From NCBI RefSeq assembly GCF_019428685.1, contig NZ_CP080095.1:2604001-2668000 (forward strand): DNA of 64,000 nucleotides, read 5' to 3'. Positions 39,333-54,887 of this stretch are shown in pieces. Within the stretch, counting starts at the first letter, position 1, and each line of letters begins with the position of its first letter. The notes under the pieces are model-generated. The model was not told where the DNA came from. It did not search any database and worked only from the letters and a program-made list of their open reading frames with translations. The DNA is from Paraburkholderia edwinii. GTDB taxonomy: Bacteria > Pseudomonadota > Gammaproteobacteria > Burkholderiales > Burkholderiaceae. The translations under genes were made by a program, and so were the position numbers.

Positions 39333-39405
39333 GGGCCGTTAGCTCAGCTGGTAGAGCAGCGGACTTTTAATCCGTTGGTCACTGGTTCGAATCCAGTACG
39401 GCCCA
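39333..39405 (+). tRNA. tRNA-Lys (UUU)
   Basis: A 73-nt cloverleaf. The acceptor arms GGGCCGT and ACGGCCC pair perfectly. The D-arm AGCTCAGCTGGTAGAGC, anticodon loop CTTTTAA (anticodon TTT) and T-arm CTGGTTCGAATCCAG are standard. The discriminator base is A at 39405, and the 3' CCA is not encoded. Such tRNA genes are common island integration sites; a ParB-like relic abuts the 3' end. Confidence 0.95.
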
Positions 39406-46890: not shown

Positions 46891-46946
46891 ATGGGCGTCG
46901 TTCGACGCTGCGCAGTCTGGTTCCGCCCGCATCCCTAAGCGATCAC

Positions 46947-47624
46947 TCACGGATCTTCGGCGAAGAACCACGCCGCCATCGTCCGTGCCAGTTCGAGCAC
47001 GACCTCCGCGTCGGTCCGTCCGGAGGACGCGCGCACGTGAAACGAATGATCTGCGTCGTCCACCACATGCAGCGTGGCGCGTGGCCCCAGCGTCTTGACG
47101 ACCGGCCTCAGCAGGTGAAGCTCTGCCAGCTTGTCGCGCGTGCCCTGCAGAAAGAGCATTGGCACCGTGACATCCGCCAGGTGTCGTGCCCGCTCCACGC
47201 CGGGCGCGCCCGCCGGGTGCAACGGGAACGCGACGAAAGCGAGGCCACGCACGCCGTCGAGTGGGGAGATGGCCTGGGCCTGGGACGTCATGCGGCCGCC
47301 ATACGACCTGCCGCCGGCGAAGAGCGGCAGGGCTGGCAGCCGCCGGCGGGCCTCCGCGACGGCTGCCTGCACGGCAGCATGTGCCACGGCCGGCGAGTCC
47401 ACCCGCCTGGAGCCTCGCTCCATGTACGGAAACTGGTAGCGCAATGTGGCGACATTGACAGCCGCAAGCGCGTCGGCCAATGACGACATGCCGGCGTGCT
47501 GCATGCCCGCCCCGGCACCGTGCGCGAAGACATACAGGGCTCGCGCGCCCTCCGGCACTCGGAGGAGCGCAGAGACCTTGGTGCCGTCGGGCAGTGCCAA
47601 GGAAAGCGATTCTGGGTCGTCCAT
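46947..47624 (-). CDS. Alpha/beta hydrolase, dienelactone-hydrolase-like (KANL3/Tex30 type)
   Basis: A 225-residue hydrolase. The nucleophile elbow is FAGGRSYGGRMTS with Ser as nucleophile; the oxyanion region is VFAHGAGAGMQH. The Asp and His of the triad are probably in FLQGTRDKLAE and VDDADHSFHV. Small soluble enzymes of this type cleave esters or have unknown substrates. The ATG at 47624 gives the family length. It stands alone between a repeat and the arabinose-type cassette. Confidence 0.85.
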   Translation of the reverse strand: MDDPESLSLALPDGTKVSALLRVPEGARALYVFAHGAGAGMQHAGMSSLADALAAVNVATLRYQFPYMERGSRRVDSPAVAHAAVQAAVAEARRRLPALPLFAGGRSYGGRMTSQAQAISPLDGVRGLAFVAFPLHPAGAPGVERARHLADVTVPMLFLQGTRDKLAELHLLRPVVKTLGPRATLHVVDDADHSFHVRASSGRTDAEVVLELARTMAAWFFAEDP

Positions 47625-47846
47625 CGTTTCAGGTCGTGTCGTTGTGGCCTTAGCCCCGATTCTGCATCAATGAGGCATCGGGGAGCGTTTGTGGCGGCCT
47701 CCGGCAAGGCATTTTCGCGGCCACCGCTCGTCGCGCTCGCGGTAACTCAATAGAAGAGGGTTTATTTGCCGCAGTTTCTGAGTTGATACGTTGTCCTGGG
47801 CCGGTATAGGCGGGAGCATCAAGTACTAACGAGGACTATGCCGCGT

Positions 47847-48893
47847 TCACGTTCGGATCCAACCGCGTCGCGCCAGGAACGACATGTTCGCGGAGCGCCA
47901 TTTCCGGCCAGACGTCGTTTCGAAAAGCAGATAAATAGCGGTTAGCGCCAGGATACCTGTAAAGGGTTGGTATAGCCGCACTTCCTCGAGAATGCCGAAG
48001 ACGAAAATGCTCAGCGTATACAGTGTCATCGTAATGCCAATAGCGAGCAGATTCTTTGCTTTCTCGCGATATCCCACGTATGTGCATGCAAGGAAAACGA
48101 CAATGATCATTGCGTACAGGATGGCAAATTTATTGCCCGTGAGAAGCACCGTCCCGTTATCCAAGTGATGGAAATGATTTTCGAATTTCTCATGTAACGT
48201 ATCTGTGCCCACGCCGGCTAGCATCGATGCCTTGAAGAGTACTTTTCTTAGCACCTCGGTGATCGCAATGCTCGCGACAACGAGACCTGTGCCCCACGTC
48301 AATGGACGAACTGCTATCCGCTGACCGAATACGATCGGTGAGACACCCCTCAAGATCAGGAACAGCCCAATAAAAATGCAGGACTCCCGGTTAAGAACAA
48401 AAATAACAAACAGGATCACGAATGGAAGAATGCCGGCGCTTCTAACGGCAAACAGAAAAAGCATAGTGAGCGTCACCGATTCGATGAAGTCCCAAGGATA
48501 GCTAAAATAGTGTATGCAGCACACCCATAGCACCGACGATGAGACAAGCGCTAGCACAGTAAGGCTGACCTTGCGGGTCAGTAAATAGGCACAACCGCAT
48601 AAAGCGAAATTTTCCAACATGAGGAATATCTTCGCAAATTCGTTGTACGGATTCTGCGAGACATTCCTGAACAGATCCAACAGGTACGGGCCAAGAAGTC
48701 GATTCTGAAAGGCTCGCCAGTGGGGCGTCCCGCTCAGGACTCCGTCCGAGGCGGCAAGCAACATATCCATATTAGCGACATGCTTTCTCGCCCAGAAGAC
48801 ATATTCGATCCACGTGCAACACGCGACACACAAAAGCAATGTCACAACACCAAGCGGAAGCATTGCGCTTCTTGTGTAGCTCGTCGGATTCAT
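47847..48893 (-). CDS. Polytopic membrane protein, possible GT-C glycosyltransferase
   Basis: A 348-residue protein with about nine or ten membrane helices and lower GC than its surroundings. After the first helix a periplasmic loop reads MDMLLAASDGVLSGTPHWRA, then FQNRLLGPYLLDLF; later VLNRESCIFIGLFLILRG. Arg-containing NRLLGPYL and RES/RET-type motifs occur in membrane glycosyltransferases that use lipid-linked sugars, so a transferase role is possible. It is the last gene of the cassette with DprE1/DprE2/UbiA homologues, 80 nt after UbiA. The exact acceptor is unknown. Confidence 0.6.
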   Translation of the reverse strand: MNPTSYTRSAMLPLGVVTLLLCVACCTWIEYVFWARKHVANMDMLLAASDGVLSGTPHWRAFQNRLLGPYLLDLFRNVSQNPYNEFAKIFLMLENFALCGCAYLLTRKVSLTVLALVSSSVLWVCCIHYFSYPWDFIESVTLTMLFLFAVRSAGILPFVILFVIFVLNRESCIFIGLFLILRGVSPIVFGQRIAVRPLTWGTGLVVASIAITEVLRKVLFKASMLAGVGTDTLHEKFENHFHHLDNGTVLLTGNKFAILYAMIIVVFLACTYVGYREKAKNLLAIGITMTLYTLSIFVFGILEEVRLYQPFTGILALTAIYLLFETTSGRKWRSANMSFLARRGWIRT

Positions 48894-48972
48894 TTTTCCA
48901 CGCCTGAGGAGATTTGAGCAAAACGGGTTGGCAGTGTTCACTGCCGCACACCGCGTACCAATCGTCGACTCA

Positions 48973-50394
48973 TCAGATCGCCAGTACCATGAACACACCG
49001 CACAATCCGATCACCGCGCAACTCACACGATCCTTGAACGTGAAGACGATGGGGTCATCGTGCATCTGTCCGCGAAAGGCGAGCATCCAGATGCGGCTTA
49101 CCCAATAAAGCGTCAGTGCGAACACAGGCCACAGCATCTGCGGATGCCGGTAGAGCAGCTTGAACTCGGGTGAATTCAAGTAAAGCGCGAGCACGAGTAC
49201 GGCGAGATAGCCAGCCGCCGTGCCGTAGGAGCGCAGGATCGACATGTCCTGCGTAATGTACCCACGCCCAGCCGCCTCCGTCTTGCCCTGCTGAAGCATG
49301 GCCTCGAGTTCGACATAGCGTTTGAGCATGGCGAGACTGAGGAAGATCGGCACGCTAAAAAGAATCAGCCAGTAAGACAGTGAAATGTTGTTGCATTCGC
49401 CGCCGGCGATCACACGGACCGTGTAGAGGCTGGCTAAGGTGAAAACATCGATTAGCGCGATCCGCTTGAGTACAAACGAATAGGCCACCGTGGCGGTCAT
49501 GTATGCAATGAGCACCGCGCCGAATTGCCACGGCAGCAAAGCAGCGATCCCGAGCCCGGCAACGAGCAGCACAATCGTAAGCACGATACCGAGCGAGAGT
49601 GGCAGCTTGCCCGATGCAAAGGGGCGGCTCTGCTTGCGAGGGTGGCGCCGGTCGGCATCGAGATCGAGCATGTCGTTCAGCAGATAGACCGATGACGCGG
49701 TCAGGCTGAACGATGCAAACGCGAGACAGGACGCGAGCACTGCCTGTAAGTCGTCGAAACGGTGCCCCAGGAGTAGCGGCAAAAAGATCAGAGAATTTTT
49801 GACCCACTGATGCACACGCATTTCTTTGAGCATGAGCGGAATCAGACGACGTTTCTCTTCAAAAAAGACGATTTCGGCATTTGCCTTGCGTGCGATTTTA
49901 GCGATCTGCCGGTTCCCGACAACGATTGCCAGACGTGCGCGCTGCCACACAGGTACGTCTGCGCGCGCGTCGCCACAGTAGTCGAAGCCGTGGTCGCCGA
50001 ACTGCTTGACGAGGGCTGCAGCCTTAAGTTTCCCGCTCAGGTTCATGCTCGCGTTGCTTGCGAGTACGCCGTTGAAAAGGCCGAAGTGAGCCGCCACCTG
50101 GCTTGCGAATCGCTGGTTGGATGCCGTGCATAGGTAGAGCGGCCGGCCCGCCAGGCGCGCTTCGCGCAAATAGTCGACCAATTGGCCGTTATAGGGCAAC
50201 ACACCCACATCGAGCGTCACACGCAGTGCGATTTGTTCCTTTAGATAGGCCTTGCCCCGCAGCAGCCAGAACACGCAAAGGAATATCGATAGTGGCTGCC
50301 GTTTGAGCAGCACGAAGAAACTCTCGAACAGAAAATCAGCCCGTGTGAGCGTGCCATCCAGGTCCACACACAGTGGAACTGCGGGATCTGACAT
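48973..50394 (-). CDS. HAD phosphatase-UbiA prenyltransferase fusion (DPPR synthase-like)
   Basis: A 473-residue fusion. Residues 1-190 are a HAD hydrolase: CVDLDGTLTRADF (D11-x-D13), LCTASNQR and DYCGDARADVPVW. Residues 195-473 are a UbiA-type membrane prenyltransferase: NDMLDLDAD (240-248) followed by HPRKQSRPFASG, and YSFVLKRIALIDV (305-317). In mycobacteria separate proteins do these steps: UbiA (Rv3806c) joins PRPP to decaprenyl phosphate, and Rv3807c is the proposed phosphatase. Here they are one chain. The start follows GAGGGTATC. A 219-nt gap parts it from gtrA. Confidence 0.85.
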   Translation of the reverse strand: MSDPAVPLCVDLDGTLTRADFLFESFFVLLKRQPLSIFLCVFWLLRGKAYLKEQIALRVTLDVGVLPYNGQLVDYLREARLAGRPLYLCTASNQRFASQVAAHFGLFNGVLASNASMNLSGKLKAAALVKQFGDHGFDYCGDARADVPVWQRARLAIVVGNRQIAKIARKANAEIVFFEEKRRLIPLMLKEMRVHQWVKNSLIFLPLLLGHRFDDLQAVLASCLAFASFSLTASSVYLLNDMLDLDADRRHPRKQSRPFASGKLPLSLGIVLTIVLLVAGLGIAALLPWQFGAVLIAYMTATVAYSFVLKRIALIDVFTLASLYTVRVIAGGECNNISLSYWLILFSVPIFLSLAMLKRYVELEAMLQQGKTEAAGRGYITQDMSILRSYGTAAGYLAVLVLALYLNSPEFKLLYRHPQMLWPVFALTLYWVSRIWMLAFRGQMHDDPIVFTFKDRVSCAVIGLCGVFMVLAI

Positions 50395-50488
50395 ATCGAT
50401 ACCCTCTCGCGCTTCTTGGGGGGCATGGCAGCGAACGCGCTATGCCGAACTCACGGAATAACCGTAGGGCATGGCTGTGCAGGAATCT

Positions 50489-50502
50489 GTACGCCAGCGT
50501 AC
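50489..50502. repeat. Short palindrome upstream of the HAD-UbiA gene
   Basis: GTACGC-CA-GCGTAC in the 219-nt gap between the gtrA-like and HAD-UbiA genes, about 95 nt before the latter's start. It could be an operator for an internal promoter. Confidence 0.35.
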
Positions 50503-50613
50503 GAGAGTACGTCGAAAACAGTTGTCAATACTTACAGAATATGCTTTGCGGTTAAATCGACACGACACATGCGAAATGACCGATGTTGAAAAAGGTCAAG
50601 GGCAACCACCCGA

Positions 50614-51027
50614 TCAGGCAAATACGAAGCGCTTGTCGAGTTGGTACTTTGCGATGTAACCGAGCGTGAGGCCGATCGCCCCGCCGGCAAGGCGTGCCGT
50701 CTCCGAATGAAAGAGCGCTTGAGCGGCAAATTCCATGGCCCAGAAGACTGCGGTGGTGGCAAGTCCCATGACGACGTAGCGTGCGAAGGTCTGGATACCG
50801 TGCGCCACGCTGCGGTGCTCGTAGTGGAAAATCCATCCCTTGTCGAGCGCATACTTGACGATGAGTCCCACGCCCGTGCCGATGCACACCGCGAGGGGGA
50901 TTGGAAACGGCCCGTTGTAAAGGCTCCACGCGATCTTCTGGCTAGCGAGATTGGCTGCCATCGAGATGAGCGCGAATAACGCGTACCACGTCACAAGAGC
51001 GGTGCGGCTTGCGACGGCAGTGTTCAC
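50614..51027 (-). CDS. GtrA-family membrane protein
   Basis: A 137-residue protein with four membrane helices: LVTWYALFALISMAANLASQ, AVCIGTGVGLIVKYALDKGW, YVVMGLATTAVFWAMEFAAQ and LAGGAIGLTLGYIAKYQLDK, ended by KRFVFA, the typical GtrA C-terminus. GtrA proteins help move or present lipid-linked sugars; Rv3789, the mycobacterial relative, is encoded beside DprE1. The ATG overlaps the stop of the DprE2-like gene by 4 nt, so the three genes are translationally coupled. Confidence 0.88.
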   Translation of the reverse strand: MNTAVASRTALVTWYALFALISMAANLASQKIAWSLYNGPFPIPLAVCIGTGVGLIVKYALDKGWIFHYEHRSVAHGIQTFARYVVMGLATTAVFWAMEFAAQALFHSETARLAGGAIGLTLGYIAKYQLDKRFVFA

Positions 51028-51764
51028 AGCGAAACTCGCTTAAGCACAAAGCGCGGCAGCGAGCGGACAACAAGCATGATCGCGCTCCAGAACCAAGGGG
51101 TATAGAGCAGGTCTTTACCTTGGGCGACGGCGCGCACGATATCTTTACCTACCTCTTCAGGGGTAGCGACGAGAGGCTTGGGTAGGGCAAGGCCCGCCGT
51201 CATTGGCGTATCGACGAAGCCGGGCTTGATCGTGAGCACGTGCACGCCTGATTTGAAGAGTCGCGCGCGCAATCCTTCGCAGAAGGTTGTGACGGCAGCC
51301 TTTGCAGCGCCGTAGACGTAGTTCGAGGCACGCCCACGGTCGCCCGCCACTGACGAAATCACCGCGATGGTGCCGCTGCGCTGTGCCTCAAACAGGCTGG
51401 CGAGCCGCGTGAGTAGCGCAATAGTGGAGAGCGCGTTGGTCGAGAATTCGTGCAGAGTTGCATCCACGTCGCGCTCGCACAGCGCCTGGTCAGCCAGAGT
51501 GCCGTGCGCGATAAGCACGATATCGATGGAACCAAGGGCCGTGCGGCAAGCATCAAGCATGGCAGCATGCTGCGTGTGGTCGTTCAGGTCGAGCACGTAC
51601 GTATGCACGTCTTGCACGCCGCGCACGCGCAAATCCTGTGCGATGGTGTCCAGCCGCGCGGCATGGCGGCCAGCGAGGAACAGGCGCCCACCGGCTGCAG
51701 CCCATTGCCGCGCGCACGCGATGGCGATGGCAGAAGAGCCGCCAATAATCAGAATGTTCTTCAT
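51024..51764 (-). CDS. dprE2: DprE2-like short-chain dehydrogenase
   Basis: A 246-residue SDR. Cofactor motif: ILIIGGSSAIAIACARQWAA; catalytic residues: ISSVAGDRG (Ser) and YVYGAAKAA (Tyr-x-x-x-Lys). The C-terminal part is hydrophobic (LLYTPWFWSAIMLVVRSLPR), as in DprE2, suggesting membrane contact. In mycobacteria DprE2 reduces the keto-intermediate made by DprE1 to give decaprenylphosphoryl-arabinose. The ATG at 51764 overlaps the DprE1-like stop by 4 nt, an organisation shared with the mycobacterial pair. Confidence 0.85.
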   Translation of the reverse strand: MKNILIIGGSSAIAIACARQWAAAGGRLFLAGRHAARLDTIAQDLRVRGVQDVHTYVLDLNDHTQHAAMLDACRTALGSIDIVLIAHGTLADQALCERDVDATLHEFSTNALSTIALLTRLASLFEAQRSGTIAVISSVAGDRGRASNYVYGAAKAAVTTFCEGLRARLFKSGVHVLTIKPGFVDTPMTAGLALPKPLVATPEEVGKDIVRAVAQGKDLLYTPWFWSAIMLVVRSLPRFVLKRVSL

Positions 51765-53083
51765 GATTGAGTCGTCCGTTTCCAGAAACGCGACATCAGC
51801 GCGGGATCGCGGTGCCGCTCGAGCTCCTGCCACGCAGGGTAAGCCGCGCGGAAATGCTCCCCGCTCATGTGCGCATCTTTGGCGGGATACTGGCGACCGC
51901 CGGCTTCGGCCACGATCGAGTCGAGCCGGGCGAAGAGCTCAGTGTTGCGCTGTTCGTTTTGCGGGAAGTCGAGGGCAAGCGAAACCCCTTCCATTGGAAA
52001 CGAGAGCAGGCCAGGTGAAGGGAGGGGGCCGCAACGCTTGAGTACCGCAAGGAATGAGCCGCTACCATTCCGGGCGATCGTGTGCAGGATCGCGTGTAAC
52101 GCGTCGCACGCGTTCGCAGCAGGTACGACGCATTGATGCTGCTGGAAGCCGTGCCGCCCGTAGATGCGATTCCAGTTGTGGATGTTGTCGAGTGGATAGA
52201 AGAAACTGGTCGGGGCCATGCGCGCGAGTTCGATACCGGGCTTCTGGCGCCGATAGTAGAGTGCGTTGAATGCGCGCACCGTTGTACGGCTAACGGGTGA
52301 AAACGGCAGGACGAACGGCACACTGCACGCGCGTTTCGCCGGAAAAGAGAAGTCACCGTCGTCTGTGTGATCGCCACTCGTGTAGATGCCTCGTCCGAGT
52401 GCTCCGCCGCGCGCAAGGCAATCCACCCACGCTACTCCGTATTCGTGGATGGCCTCCTGGTCGCGTGCGAGGGCTAGGAACTCGTCGAGGTTGGCATAGC
52501 GTGTGCGTGAGACGGCGATGTGGCTCGAGCGTACCGGCATGAGCTGGATTTCTACCCATTCGATCACGCCGGTAAGGCCTAGGCCGCCGATCGTCGCACG
52601 AAAGAGCGCGGTTTCCTCGTTGAGTGAACATTCGATTGCCGGACGGTCGGAGCGCAGCAGCGAAAAGCGACGCACGTGGCGTCCGAACGTACCGCGCACA
52701 TGATGGTTCTTGCCATGCACGTCGTTGGCTACTGCGCCCCCAAGCGTGGCGAACTGCGTACCCGGCGTGACCGGCAGCATCCAGCCATGCGGCAAGGAGA
52801 CGGTGAGCAGTTCACCGAGCGTAATGCCCGCCTCGGCGCGCACGACGCCGTTTGTCCAGTCGGCGCTGATGAAGCGCGCGAGGCACTTCATTGGCAGCAC
52901 CTGACCGGTGTCCGCGAGGCAACTGTCACCATAGCTGCGGCCGTTGCCAAACGCGAGCGTCGTACCGAGCCGCGCGTGGGCGTCGGCCAGGCGCGGCTGG
53001 ATGACATCACGCCAGGCAAGCGCCTCACCCGACTGGTGAGCATAGGGGTAGCGTCCCCACGATTGCAGCTTTGAGGCGTTCAT
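51761..53083 (-). CDS. dprE1: DprE1-like FAD-dependent oxidase
   Basis: A 440-residue flavoprotein that, in mycobacteria, oxidises C2 of decaprenylphosphoryl-ribose. FAD-binding motifs match: GNGRSYGDSC (46-55), GTQFATLGGAVANDVHGKNH (108-127) and FGRHV. The C-terminal substrate part has FYPLDNIHNWNRIYGRHGF and YPAKDAH, whose Lys402 matches catalytic Lys418 of M. tuberculosis. The Cys of the mycobacterial NICVDFP motif, the benzothiazinone target, is Ala370 here (LALDFP). The ATG at 53083 is the family start; longer frames are rejected. Confidence 0.88.
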   Translation of the reverse strand: MNASKLQSWGRYPYAHQSGEALAWRDVIQPRLADAHARLGTTLAFGNGRSYGDSCLADTGQVLPMKCLARFISADWTNGVVRAEAGITLGELLTVSLPHGWMLPVTPGTQFATLGGAVANDVHGKNHHVRGTFGRHVRRFSLLRSDRPAIECSLNEETALFRATIGGLGLTGVIEWVEIQLMPVRSSHIAVSRTRYANLDEFLALARDQEAIHEYGVAWVDCLARGGALGRGIYTSGDHTDDGDFSFPAKRACSVPFVLPFSPVSRTTVRAFNALYYRRQKPGIELARMAPTSFFYPLDNIHNWNRIYGRHGFQQHQCVVPAANACDALHAILHTIARNGSGSFLAVLKRCGPLPSPGLLSFPMEGVSLALDFPQNEQRNTELFARLDSIVAEAGGRQYPAKDAHMSGEHFRAAYPAWQELERHRDPALMSRFWKRTTQS

Positions 53084-53277
53084 GTATAACGACACCGTTT
53101 CGAATGTCCGGCAATGTGCCAGAACATCGGGCCTTCGACAGTGGGCCAGACCACAGTACAAACGGGGGGCATGTCGTTGCGGCGCTTTCTGGTCGTTCTG
53201 CACTCGCGCTACACGCGAATCTTCGCAATGAGGTCTCTTTCCGCCGGCAGCGAAAATATGTTGCATCGCCGCTAAAA

Positions 53278-53315
53278 CCATCCTATAACCATCCATATGG
53301 ATGGTCACTGGATGG
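53278..53315. promoter_or_regulatory. Symmetric four-half-site operator before the CopG-like gene
   Basis: CCATCC (53278), 5 nt, CCATCC (53289), 4 nt, GGATGG (53299), 5 nt, GGATGG (53310). The inner part is the perfect palindrome ACCATCCATATGGATGGT (53288-53305). The array ends 3 nt before the ATG at 53319. Ribbon-helix-helix proteins bind such paired repeats, so self-repression is likely. Confidence 0.7.
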
Positions 53316-53318
53316 AAT

Positions 53319-53744
53319 ATGAAAAAAGCTGCGATTCCCGAGACCCTTCGCACCAAAGGCGGAGAGTCCGAAAAAATCACGATCAATCTCGTTCCCGTAG
53401 ACCTCGGTCAGATCGATCTTCTCGTTGAAGAAGGCTTCTATTCGAACCGTACCGACCTGATCCGAACAGCCATCCGCAATCAGCTTGCGTTACACGCTCA
53501 GGTCGTTCAGGAGACCGTCACACGCCGCGCGCTCGTGCTCGGCATGCAGCATTTTTCCAGGCAGGACCTTGAGGCAGTCCGCACGGCGCGCGAGCGTCTC
53601 GACATCCAGGTGCTCGGACTGGCCAGCATTGCGGCTGACGTCTCACCGGAACTCGCGCGCGCAACGATTGGAAGTGTCGCGGTGCTGGGGGCATTTCACG
53701 CGACACCGGCTGTCAAGGCAGCGCTCGCCGACCGTATCCGGTAG
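53319..53744 (+). CDS. CopG/ribbon-helix-helix regulator
   Basis: A 141-residue protein. The DNA-binding strand and helices are at about residues 20-60 (KITINLVPVDLGQIDLLVEE, GFYSNRTDLIRTAIRNQLAL). A longer C-terminal part follows (RRALVLGMQHFSRQDLEAVR, RLDIQVLGLASIAADVSPEL, IGSVAVLGAFHATPAVKAAL), possibly a ligand or protein-binding domain. It lies 45 nt before the esterase gene on the same strand and is divergent from dprE1. A dead copy of the gene pair is at 11.3-11.8 kb. It likely represses its own operon through the adjacent operator. Confidence 0.8.
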   Translation: MKKAAIPETLRTKGGESEKITINLVPVDLGQIDLLVEEGFYSNRTDLIRTAIRNQLALHAQVVQETVTRRALVLGMQHFSRQDLEAVRTARERLDIQVLGLASIAADVSPELARATIGSVAVLGAFHATPAVKAALADRIR

Positions 53745-53789
53745 CCGCCGCGGCCGAACCTGACATCACTCTGCTTACCGGACCACATC

Positions 53790-54887
53790 ATGAAATTGAA
53801 TGAAGGATTCCTGAACTCGATGCACGAAGCGATGGCCTTGTTGCGTACACGCGGCCCTGCCGAAGCGACGGCGGCAATACAACGCGCGTTGCGCGGTGAA
53901 GGCACTCGGGCGGCGAACGACATGTCGGATGTAACGGTATCCACTCCCGTGGACGCCCCGCTTTACCGGACGAACAGGTACGACGTCCCGCCGCGTGCGA
54001 CGGAATGGGTACCCTCAGATGTCGAAGATCGCGGACATTTCAGCACGCACTCGTATTCAAATGCTGCTGGCCGTCGGCAATATCGGCTCTATGTGCCGGC
54101 AGGGGCCGCGAGCACACCGATGCCGCTCGTTGTCATGCTGCATGGCTGTACCCAGGACGCTGATGACTTCGCAGCCGGAACCCAGATGAATGCGCTCGCC
54201 GAGCGTCACCGGTTTCTTGTCGCGTATCCGGTGCAGCCGAAGCAGGCCAATCCGTCGAAGTGCTGGAACTGGTTCAGGCCGGGTGATCAGTCGCGAGAAC
54301 GCGGCGAGCCGGCCCTGATCGCGGGCATCACGCGCGAGATCATTGCCATGCACGATGTCGACCCTACGCGGGTGTACGTGGCGGGCCTGTCCGCCGGCGG
54401 CGCAATGGCGGCAATCATGATTAGCGAGTATCCCGAACTGTACGCCGCGGCCGGCGTACATTCCGGTCTCGCTGCGCGTTGTGCGCATAACTTGCCGTCT
54501 GCGCTCGCCGCGATGAAAGGCGGCACACATCCCGCAGAGGCGCGACGCGCGCAATGCGATTCGTTTGCGCCGCAACGGCCCATGATCGTTTTTCATGGCG
54601 ATGCTGATGCCACGGTTCACCTGTCGAATGCTGCCCGGATCGTGCGCGGTTTTGAAACACAACACGATGGTGTCGACGAAGCACGTCGTAGCGGGGCGGG
54701 CCGACGTGACTGCACGGTAGTGCGGCTGGTTTCCCGCGGTGGCGTCGATGCCGAGCTATGGACCATTCACGGCGCGCCGCACGCATGGGCAGGCGGCAGT
54801 GCGCGCGGCAGTTATACGGACGCAAGCGGGCCGGACGCGAGTGGCGAAATGCTACGCTTCTTTCTTGATCATCCGCAACGTCCGTAG
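53790..54887 (+). CDS. PHB-depolymerase-family esterase (LpqC-like)
   Basis: A 365-residue alpha/beta hydrolase. The oxyanion region is VVMLHGCTQDADDFAAGTQM; nucleophile elbow GLSAGGAMAA; acid in VFHGDADATVH; His in IHGAPHAWAGG. The 60-residue N-terminal part (LNEGFLNSMHEAMALLRTRG, AATAAIQRALRGEG) precedes the catalytic domain and has no signal peptide, so the enzyme is cytoplasmic or exported otherwise. Relatives cleave short polyhydroxybutyrate or feruloyl esters. Its first 40 codons are duplicated at 11708. Confidence 0.88.
   Translation: MKLNEGFLNSMHEAMALLRTRGPAEATAAIQRALRGEGTRAANDMSDVTVSTPVDAPLYRTNRYDVPPRATEWVPSDVEDRGHFSTHSYSNAAGRRQYRLYVPAGAASTPMPLVVMLHGCTQDADDFAAGTQMNALAERHRFLVAYPVQPKQANPSKCWNWFRPGDQSRERGEPALIAGITREIIAMHDVDPTRVYVAGLSAGGAMAAIMISEYPELYAAAGVHSGLAARCAHNLPSALAAMKGGTHPAEARRAQCDSFAPQRPMIVFHGDADATVHLSNAARIVRGFETQHDGVDEARRSGAGRRDCTVVRLVSRGGVDAELWTIHGAPHAWAGGSARGSYTDASGPDASGEMLRFFLDHPQRP

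Follow-up and report, generated by a model that had tools for sequence, protein, structure and literature searches.

A five-gene Paraburkholderia cassette with a candidate compact GT-C transferase for polyprenyl-phosphate-linked D-arabinofuranose

What is made by five adjacent genes of Paraburkholderia edwinii that resemble the mycobacterial route to decaprenyl-phospho-arabinose, and where might the sugar go? The genes lie in a 64,000-nucleotide stretch (NCBI RefSeq assembly GCF_019428685.1, contig NZ_CP080095.1, positions 2,604,001 to 2,668,000 of the forward strand; hereafter the window) of an 8.3 Mb genome in two contigs. The five genes probably make and use polyprenyl-phosphate-D-arabinofuranose, the last gene encoding a compact GT-C arabinofuranosyltransferase for which a surface polysaccharide is the probable acceptor. 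The novelty is the compact GT-C family of this last gene, which is unnamed in the databases searched (Pfam, NCBIfam).

The cassette and the proposed pathway

A first-pass annotation made from the sequence alone had placed five same-strand genes of these families within 47847-53083, and open reading frames (ORFs) and profile matches agree with it in both family and position, with all five ORFs on the minus strand. The features are as follows.

51761-53083, minus strand: DprE1-like flavin adenine dinucleotide (FAD) oxidase, 440 amino acids (aa); would oxidize C2 of polyprenyl-phospho-ribofuranose
51024-51764, minus strand: DprE2-like short-chain dehydrogenase/reductase (SDR), 246 aa; would finish the epimerization to arabinofuranose
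50614-51027, minus strand: GtrA-family small membrane protein, 137 aa; candidate flippase
50489-50502, minus strand: palindrome GTACGC-TG-GCGTAC in the gtrA/HAD-ubiA gap; possible operator or promoter element
48973-50394, minus strand: HAD phosphatase fused to a UbiA-type polyprenyl-phosphate phosphoribosyltransferase, 473 aa
47847-48893, minus strand: compact polytopic GT-C-fold protein, 348 aa; candidate polyprenyl-phospho-D-arabinofuranose-dependent transferase

Both 4-nt overlaps described among the first three genes are present (51761-51764 and 51024-51027), while HAD-ubiA is set off by gaps of 219 nt from gtrA and 79 nt from the last gene. All five genes recur in identical order in genome G026 (83-94% aa identity) and Paraburkholderia sp. 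C35, and comparison with either reveals purifying selection on all five (ratio of nonsynonymous to synonymous substitution rates, dN/dS, 0.07-0.20). Because the order is kept in both genomes and every gene is under purifying selection, the cassette is confirmed as real rather than a chance arrangement. The nearest named relatives of its genes belong to Paraburkholderia, and the genome holds one DprE1-like gene (E <= 1e-40) and one HAD-UbiA gene over the family cut-off.

In the proposed pathway, the UbiA domain would transfer ribose-5-phosphate from phosphoribosyl pyrophosphate onto a polyprenyl (probably undecaprenyl) phosphate, the fused HAD domain would take off the 5-phosphate, and the DprE1/DprE2-like pair would invert C2 by oxidation followed by reduction to yield the arabino form. 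The lipid-linked sugar may then be helped through the inner membrane by the GtrA-like protein, after which the last gene, as a small GT-C enzyme, would transfer D-arabinofuranose to a periplasmic acceptor, most likely a surface polysaccharide such as exopolysaccharide or the O-chain of lipopolysaccharide. If this is true, the locus provides a small testable set for D-arabinofuranose addition in a Gram-negative bacterium (donor synthase, epimerase pair, flippase candidate and compact transferase), and its direct prediction is D-arabinofuranose in the surface glycans of P. edwinii.

The last gene and its family

The last gene has zero NCBIfam matches and only a chance-level Pfam match (DUF3262, E 0.55), and neither a description of its family nor one of such a cassette in Burkholderiaceae was found in open-licence PMC papers. 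Its homologues and dN/dS rule out a chance ORF. The predicted structure of the protein has the GT-C transmembrane fold, and its matches to that fold are set apart by a gap from those to unrelated ones; in the structural comparison of the window's model the AftD row (7.4) falls below the GT-C block, which is no evidence against the fold. In addition, 30 of the 33 conserved residues lie on the predicted periplasmic face. In GT-C enzymes the first periplasmic loop carries a conserved acid. In the 25-sequence alignment of this family, however, D43 and D50 of that loop are variable, and the invariant acids, D135 and E170, are located in later loops. The first-loop acid of Citrobacter ORF12 is D31 (PMC11127046). 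Compared with the other four genes, the last gene has a lower G+C content (49.9% vs 57-63%), and both its dN and its dN/dS are higher; this pattern would fit a gene that recognizes a variable glycan.

Scanning genomes for a nine-residue motif from the family yielded 17 loci, including one weak match of 28 residues (L081). A DprE1-like gene (E <= 1e-80) is present in the genomes of 13 of these loci, and a HAD-UbiA over the cut-off in those of 11, against a DprE1-like background of 46 in 299 genomes of the phylum (E <= 1e-40). The DprE1-like excess is significant with kinship uncorrected, as in all these tests (one-sided Fisher P 1.3e-7), and it persists when C35 and the weak locus are left out (11/15, P 2.2e-6) and when the three linked genomes are excluded as well, so that only genomes with the two genes apart are counted (8/12, P 1.5e-4). 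Among the four genomes in which a DprE1-like gene was missed (G060, G065, G067 and G068), G067 and G068 carry stand-alone UbiA genes (183 and 188 bits), and G060 has a HAD fragment at a contig end.

The last gene adjoins the other four in six genomes and in two gene orders, the second of which (UbiA-GtrA-DprE1-DprE2-last gene) is found in Ancylobacter oerskovii, Ancylobacter sp. Lp-2 and a Granulosicoccus metagenome-assembled genome (MAG). Since the linkage recurs in Ancylobacter and Granulosicoccus, the association spans distant lineages. When run on the 300 sampled genomes of the order, the profile of the family recovered only the window's gene, the single member in its genome, and a weak match (4.3e-5) in G098 that lies about 1 kb downstream of the DprE1-like gene of that genome.

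The model fold, the gene linkage and the co-occurrence support the earlier proposal that the last gene encodes a GT-C transferase tied to the donor. An unlikely alternative, though one that deserves some weight, is that the donor module works as described while the last gene encodes an accessory membrane or polymerase-like protein and another GT-C enzyme, encoded elsewhere in the genome, uses the donor. Such a division of labour would accord with the variable first-loop acid, with the presence of at least one other GT-C-family gene in the genome (PMT_2, 52 bits), and with the last gene adjoining only three (window, G026 and C35) of the ten cassettes that have the window order DprE1-DprE2-GtrA-UbiA, C35 (L065) included. 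However, a GT-C fold set apart from unrelated folds, conserved residues gathered on the predicted periplasmic face, and linkage that recurs in two gene orders alongside co-occurrence in 13 of 17 genomes argue for the transferase itself.

A wider GT-C group, absent from the window's genome, has the key residues of the last gene and comprises proteins of mostly 300-410 residues. In Burkholderiaceae its presence goes with that of HAD-UbiA (15 of 16 genomes vs 20 of 134). The last gene and this group may form an unnamed superfamily of GT-C pentofuranosyltransferases, using polyprenyl-phospho-arabinose in the presence of DprE genes and polyprenyl-phospho-ribose in genomes with HAD-UbiA only, and relying for catalysis on D135/E170 rather than on a first-loop acid; this proposal is about as likely as not. 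It would amount to a new GT-C family that extends from Pseudomonadota to Limnochordia and Chloroflexi MAGs, with members annotated as hypothetical proteins in several Burkholderia species. If the main reading of the cassette is right, surface-glycan pentofuranosylation would become predictable in Burkholderiaceae and beyond from a transferase family that the family databases searched do not name.

In P0110 of Paraburkholderia sp. GAS448 (507 aa), a truncated UbiA domain is followed by the latter portion of a GT-C protein of the wider group, a fusion that apparently arose by deletion between two neighbouring genes. At L059 (G028:C22), rmlB/rmlA/rmlC-like genes are found close to those for HAD-UbiA, a 399-aa wider-group GT-C protein and a small membrane protein, an arrangement resembling a three-component O-antigen system, with the roles of the rml genes and the small protein judged by sequence starts. 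The relative of the last gene in a Methylococcaceae MAG (L072:9001-9866) matches as two overlapping segments, each in its own reading frame. As for the alignments, A1 omitted P0001 (99% identical to the query) and A3 comprised 49 of the 101 proteins collected; the joint alignment omitted P0019 (198 aa) and included P0020, P0021 and P0023 (>450 aa) minus their first 150 residues. Two short fragment matches were excluded from the 21 places of the distance count.

Acceptor and donor sugar

Pfam was run on neighbouring genes in eight related loci, and this sample leans towards glycan genes because the neighbours were chosen by eye. Polysaccharide genes were among the chosen neighbours in six of the eight: a Wza-like polysaccharide export protein with a sugar transferase (L045), an ABC-2 exporter pair (L034), a GT4-type phosphosugar transferase with a CapD-like protein (L037), GT4 enzymes (L054 and L056), and a polysaccharide flippase with GT2, GT4, ManC-like and GT4-type phosphosugar transferase genes (L065). 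The other two loci gave an asparaginase (L044) and a carboxylesterase with an extensin-like protein (L042). A type IV pilin would be the acceptor by analogy with Pseudomonas paraeruginosa, whose D-arabinofuranose (D-Araf) cassette modifies pilin (PMC12369383), and the genome does encode a single protein over the Pfam Pilin cut-off (43.6 bits). However, that gene lies about 1.9 Mb from the cassette, and with export, flippase and transferase genes beside six of the eight loci a pilin acceptor is distinctly unlikely, whereas a polysaccharide is, from this gene context, the more likely one.

The identity of the sugar depends on the DprE-like pair. The DprE1-like protein matches the DprE1 equivalog model NF053785 with 347.1 bits (1.9e-103), below its cut-off of 500, which was reached in none of the 300 genomes of the order and none of the 299 of the phylum; therefore, only membership of a wider DprE1-like group is claimed. 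Against PDB, DprE1 (4aut) is matched at 2.4e-67 and the best non-DprE1 chain at 2.6e-6, so that unrelated sugar oxidases, a reading under which the earlier pathway assignment would fail, are ruled out by the structure matches. The protein retains HGKNHH from residue 123 and AKD from residue 401, and its Ala370 aligns to a cysteine of the Mycobacterium 4aut sequence that we take to be the one bound by benzothiazinones. With alanine at this presumed drug-binding position, the window protein is a natural comparison for DprE1 chemistry. The DprE2-like protein exceeds the cut-off of the SDR model NF005489 (358.5 bits over 267) and falls short of that of the DprE2 equivalog NF053786 (187.1 bits vs 250); it has YxxxK from residue 151, and its gene begins within the last 4 nt of the one before it. 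The third gene belongs to the GtrA family (NF037976, 165.8 bits over 50; Pfam PF04138, 31.1 over 26.1).

It is very unlikely that the route is right but ends in another pentofuranose or a keto-sugar made by the DprE-like pair. Such an outcome would suit the scores below both equivalog cut-offs, and a different epimerase in Citrobacter does yield xylofuranose on the same lipid (PMC11127046). However, the locus encodes both DprE partners in overlapping genes, DprE1 leads the structure matches by a wide margin, and Araf-containing glycans accompany DprE1/E2 homologues (PMC11127046), all of which favours D-arabinofuranose.

The HAD-UbiA fusion belongs to family NF006088 (655.2 bits over a cut-off of 351, residues 3-473), with Pfam scores of 69.8 bits for UbiA and 32.2 bits for HAD. 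It scores 151.7, 146.3 and 138.6 bits against the decaprenyl-phosphate phosphoribosyltransferase models NF008978, NF008977 and NF008976, under the mycobacterial equivalog cut-offs of 207, 234 and 474, and the best solved relative of its UbiA part is the mycobacterial enzyme PDB 8j8j (8.6e-33). The HAD domain carries D11-L-D13-G-T, LCTAS from residue 88, GKLK from 121 and GDARAD from 141, which supply the loop-I aspartate nucleophile and the remaining HAD motifs of a PRP phosphatase. The UbiA active-site residues N240, D241, D244 and D248 with R359 and E362 have the spacing of the residues tested in the PPPRS of Citrobacter (ORF15: N247, D248, D251 and D255 with R366 and E369, besides the HAD nucleophile D; PMC11127046). 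That UbiA is instead a quinone or haem prenyltransferase among unrelated sugar oxidases has a negligible probability, since beyond UbiA superfamily membership as such the domain reaches 152 bits on phosphoribosyltransferase models vs 40 on haem O synthase and 30 on quinone UbiA, which rules that reading out, and two further UbiA-family genes of the genome (L001 and L002) score far higher on generic UbiA (225 and 216 bits). Neither contrary affinity named in the first-pass annotation was found, and on family models and structure matches its pathway reading of the first four genes is well supported.

Relatives, surroundings and known systems

The cassette and the fusion had been regarded as remarkable outside mycobacteria, a view that did not hold: a fused HAD-UbiA has already been characterized, DprE1/E2 systems are mentioned (PMC11127046), and both kinds of gene are frequent, so neither feature is new. 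With the window's own genome counted in each set, 24 of the 59 genomes in the relatives set and 34 of the 150 Burkholderiaceae sampled carry a HAD-UbiA over the cut-off, and a DprE1-like gene (E <= 1e-40) occurs in 34 of 300 genomes of the order, besides the 46 of the phylum. Relatives' genes were located by tblastn and a scored gene caller, which misses or shortens some genes. Among the 31 stretches compared (L034-L064, the window's own being L063), nine have the window order, eight have UbiA, DprE1 and DprE2 otherwise arranged (UbiA identity 47-50%), eight have HAD-UbiA (60-65% identity) in a stretch free of DprE genes, as expected of a system limited to ribofuranose, and six are partial, broken or distant. 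The DprE-free loci (L043, L046, L047, L048, L051, L053, L057 and L058), all with a polytopic protein of 396-534 residues adjoining or one gene off according to the scored caller, are candidate ribofuranose-adding systems. At L034 (13554-15020), a DprE cassette adjoins the gene of a 489-aa polytopic protein whose residues 16-97 align with the model for the mycobacterial terminal beta-(1->2)-arabinofuranosyltransferase at 48 bits, far below the cut-off of 1050, and at L061 (G008) HAD-UbiA is in pieces.

The palindrome recurs in the same place in 10 of the 12 gtrA/HAD-ubiA gaps examined, as an exact 14-mer in six, among which A/T to G/C changes in one arm are matched in the other, and with one or two changes in four, whose arms are only partly paired. 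The genome as a whole contains its 15-base form once and the reversed control pattern 0 times. If two mismatches are tolerated, the window holds six against 4.3 in shuffles, which is no excess, and the element is therefore notable in its exact form and place only. Scans of 46900-53800 gave no excess of sigma-70 promoters (1 vs 2.4 in shuffles) or terminators (7 vs 6.6). The three flanking genes scanned encode an alpha/beta hydrolase, a ribbon-helix-helix regulator and a polyhydroxybutyrate-depolymerase-type esterase. A tRNA-linked island is ruled out, as the sole tRNA in 38000-64000 (tRNA-Lys at 39333) lies away from the cassette edges.

Among known systems, Citrobacter youngae O1/O2 (ORF12, ORF14 and ORF15; PMC11127046) shares with the window a HAD (PRP)-UbiA (PPPRS) fusion, assayed there as making polyprenyl-phospho-ribofuranose, a small flippase, a pentose-setting epimerase and a GT-C transferase, whose action is placed in the periplasm. 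Candidates for the three components of such pentofuranose systems (donor synthase, flippase and GT-C) are encoded together in the window as HAD-UbiA, a GtrA-like protein and a GT-C-fold protein. However, Citrobacter uses the ORF13 epimerase and a MATE-family flippase where the window has the DprE1/DprE2-like pair and a GtrA-family candidate, and its GT136 enzyme with a carbohydrate-binding domain is, compared by description, larger than the 348-aa protein. DprE1/E2 homologues are found in the candidate systems for Araf-containing glycans of the same paper. The available parts of PMC10412643 and PMC12826051 name DprE1 only as a mycobacterial drug target.

The mycobacterial decaprenyl-phospho-arabinose route (Rv3806c, Rv3807c, DprE1, DprE2, Rv3789 and Emb/Aft) likewise combines a phosphoribosyltransferase, DprE1/E2 epimerization, a small membrane protein proposed as flippase and GT-C transferases. 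It differs in its separate, unrelated phosphatase, in the much larger size of its transferases, and in its DprE proteins, those of the window scoring below the NCBI equivalog cut-offs. The D-Araf pilin cluster recounted for P. paraeruginosa (PSPA7_6245-6251 with TfpW; PMC12369383) provides Gram-negative D-arabinofuranose donor genes, but its UbiA enzyme, unlike that of the window, lacks a phosphatase domain (PMC11127046), and the GT-C protein TfpW, likened to the last gene by description rather than sequence, is located with pilA. Finally, noeCHOP of Azorhizobium and Rhizobium IRBG74, recounted for Nod-factor arabinosylation (PMC5080398), includes orthologues of three of the four decaprenyl-phospho-arabinose steps and a proposed dedicated transferase, noeP (again compared by description, not sequence), but, unlike the cassette of the window, it targets Nod factors.

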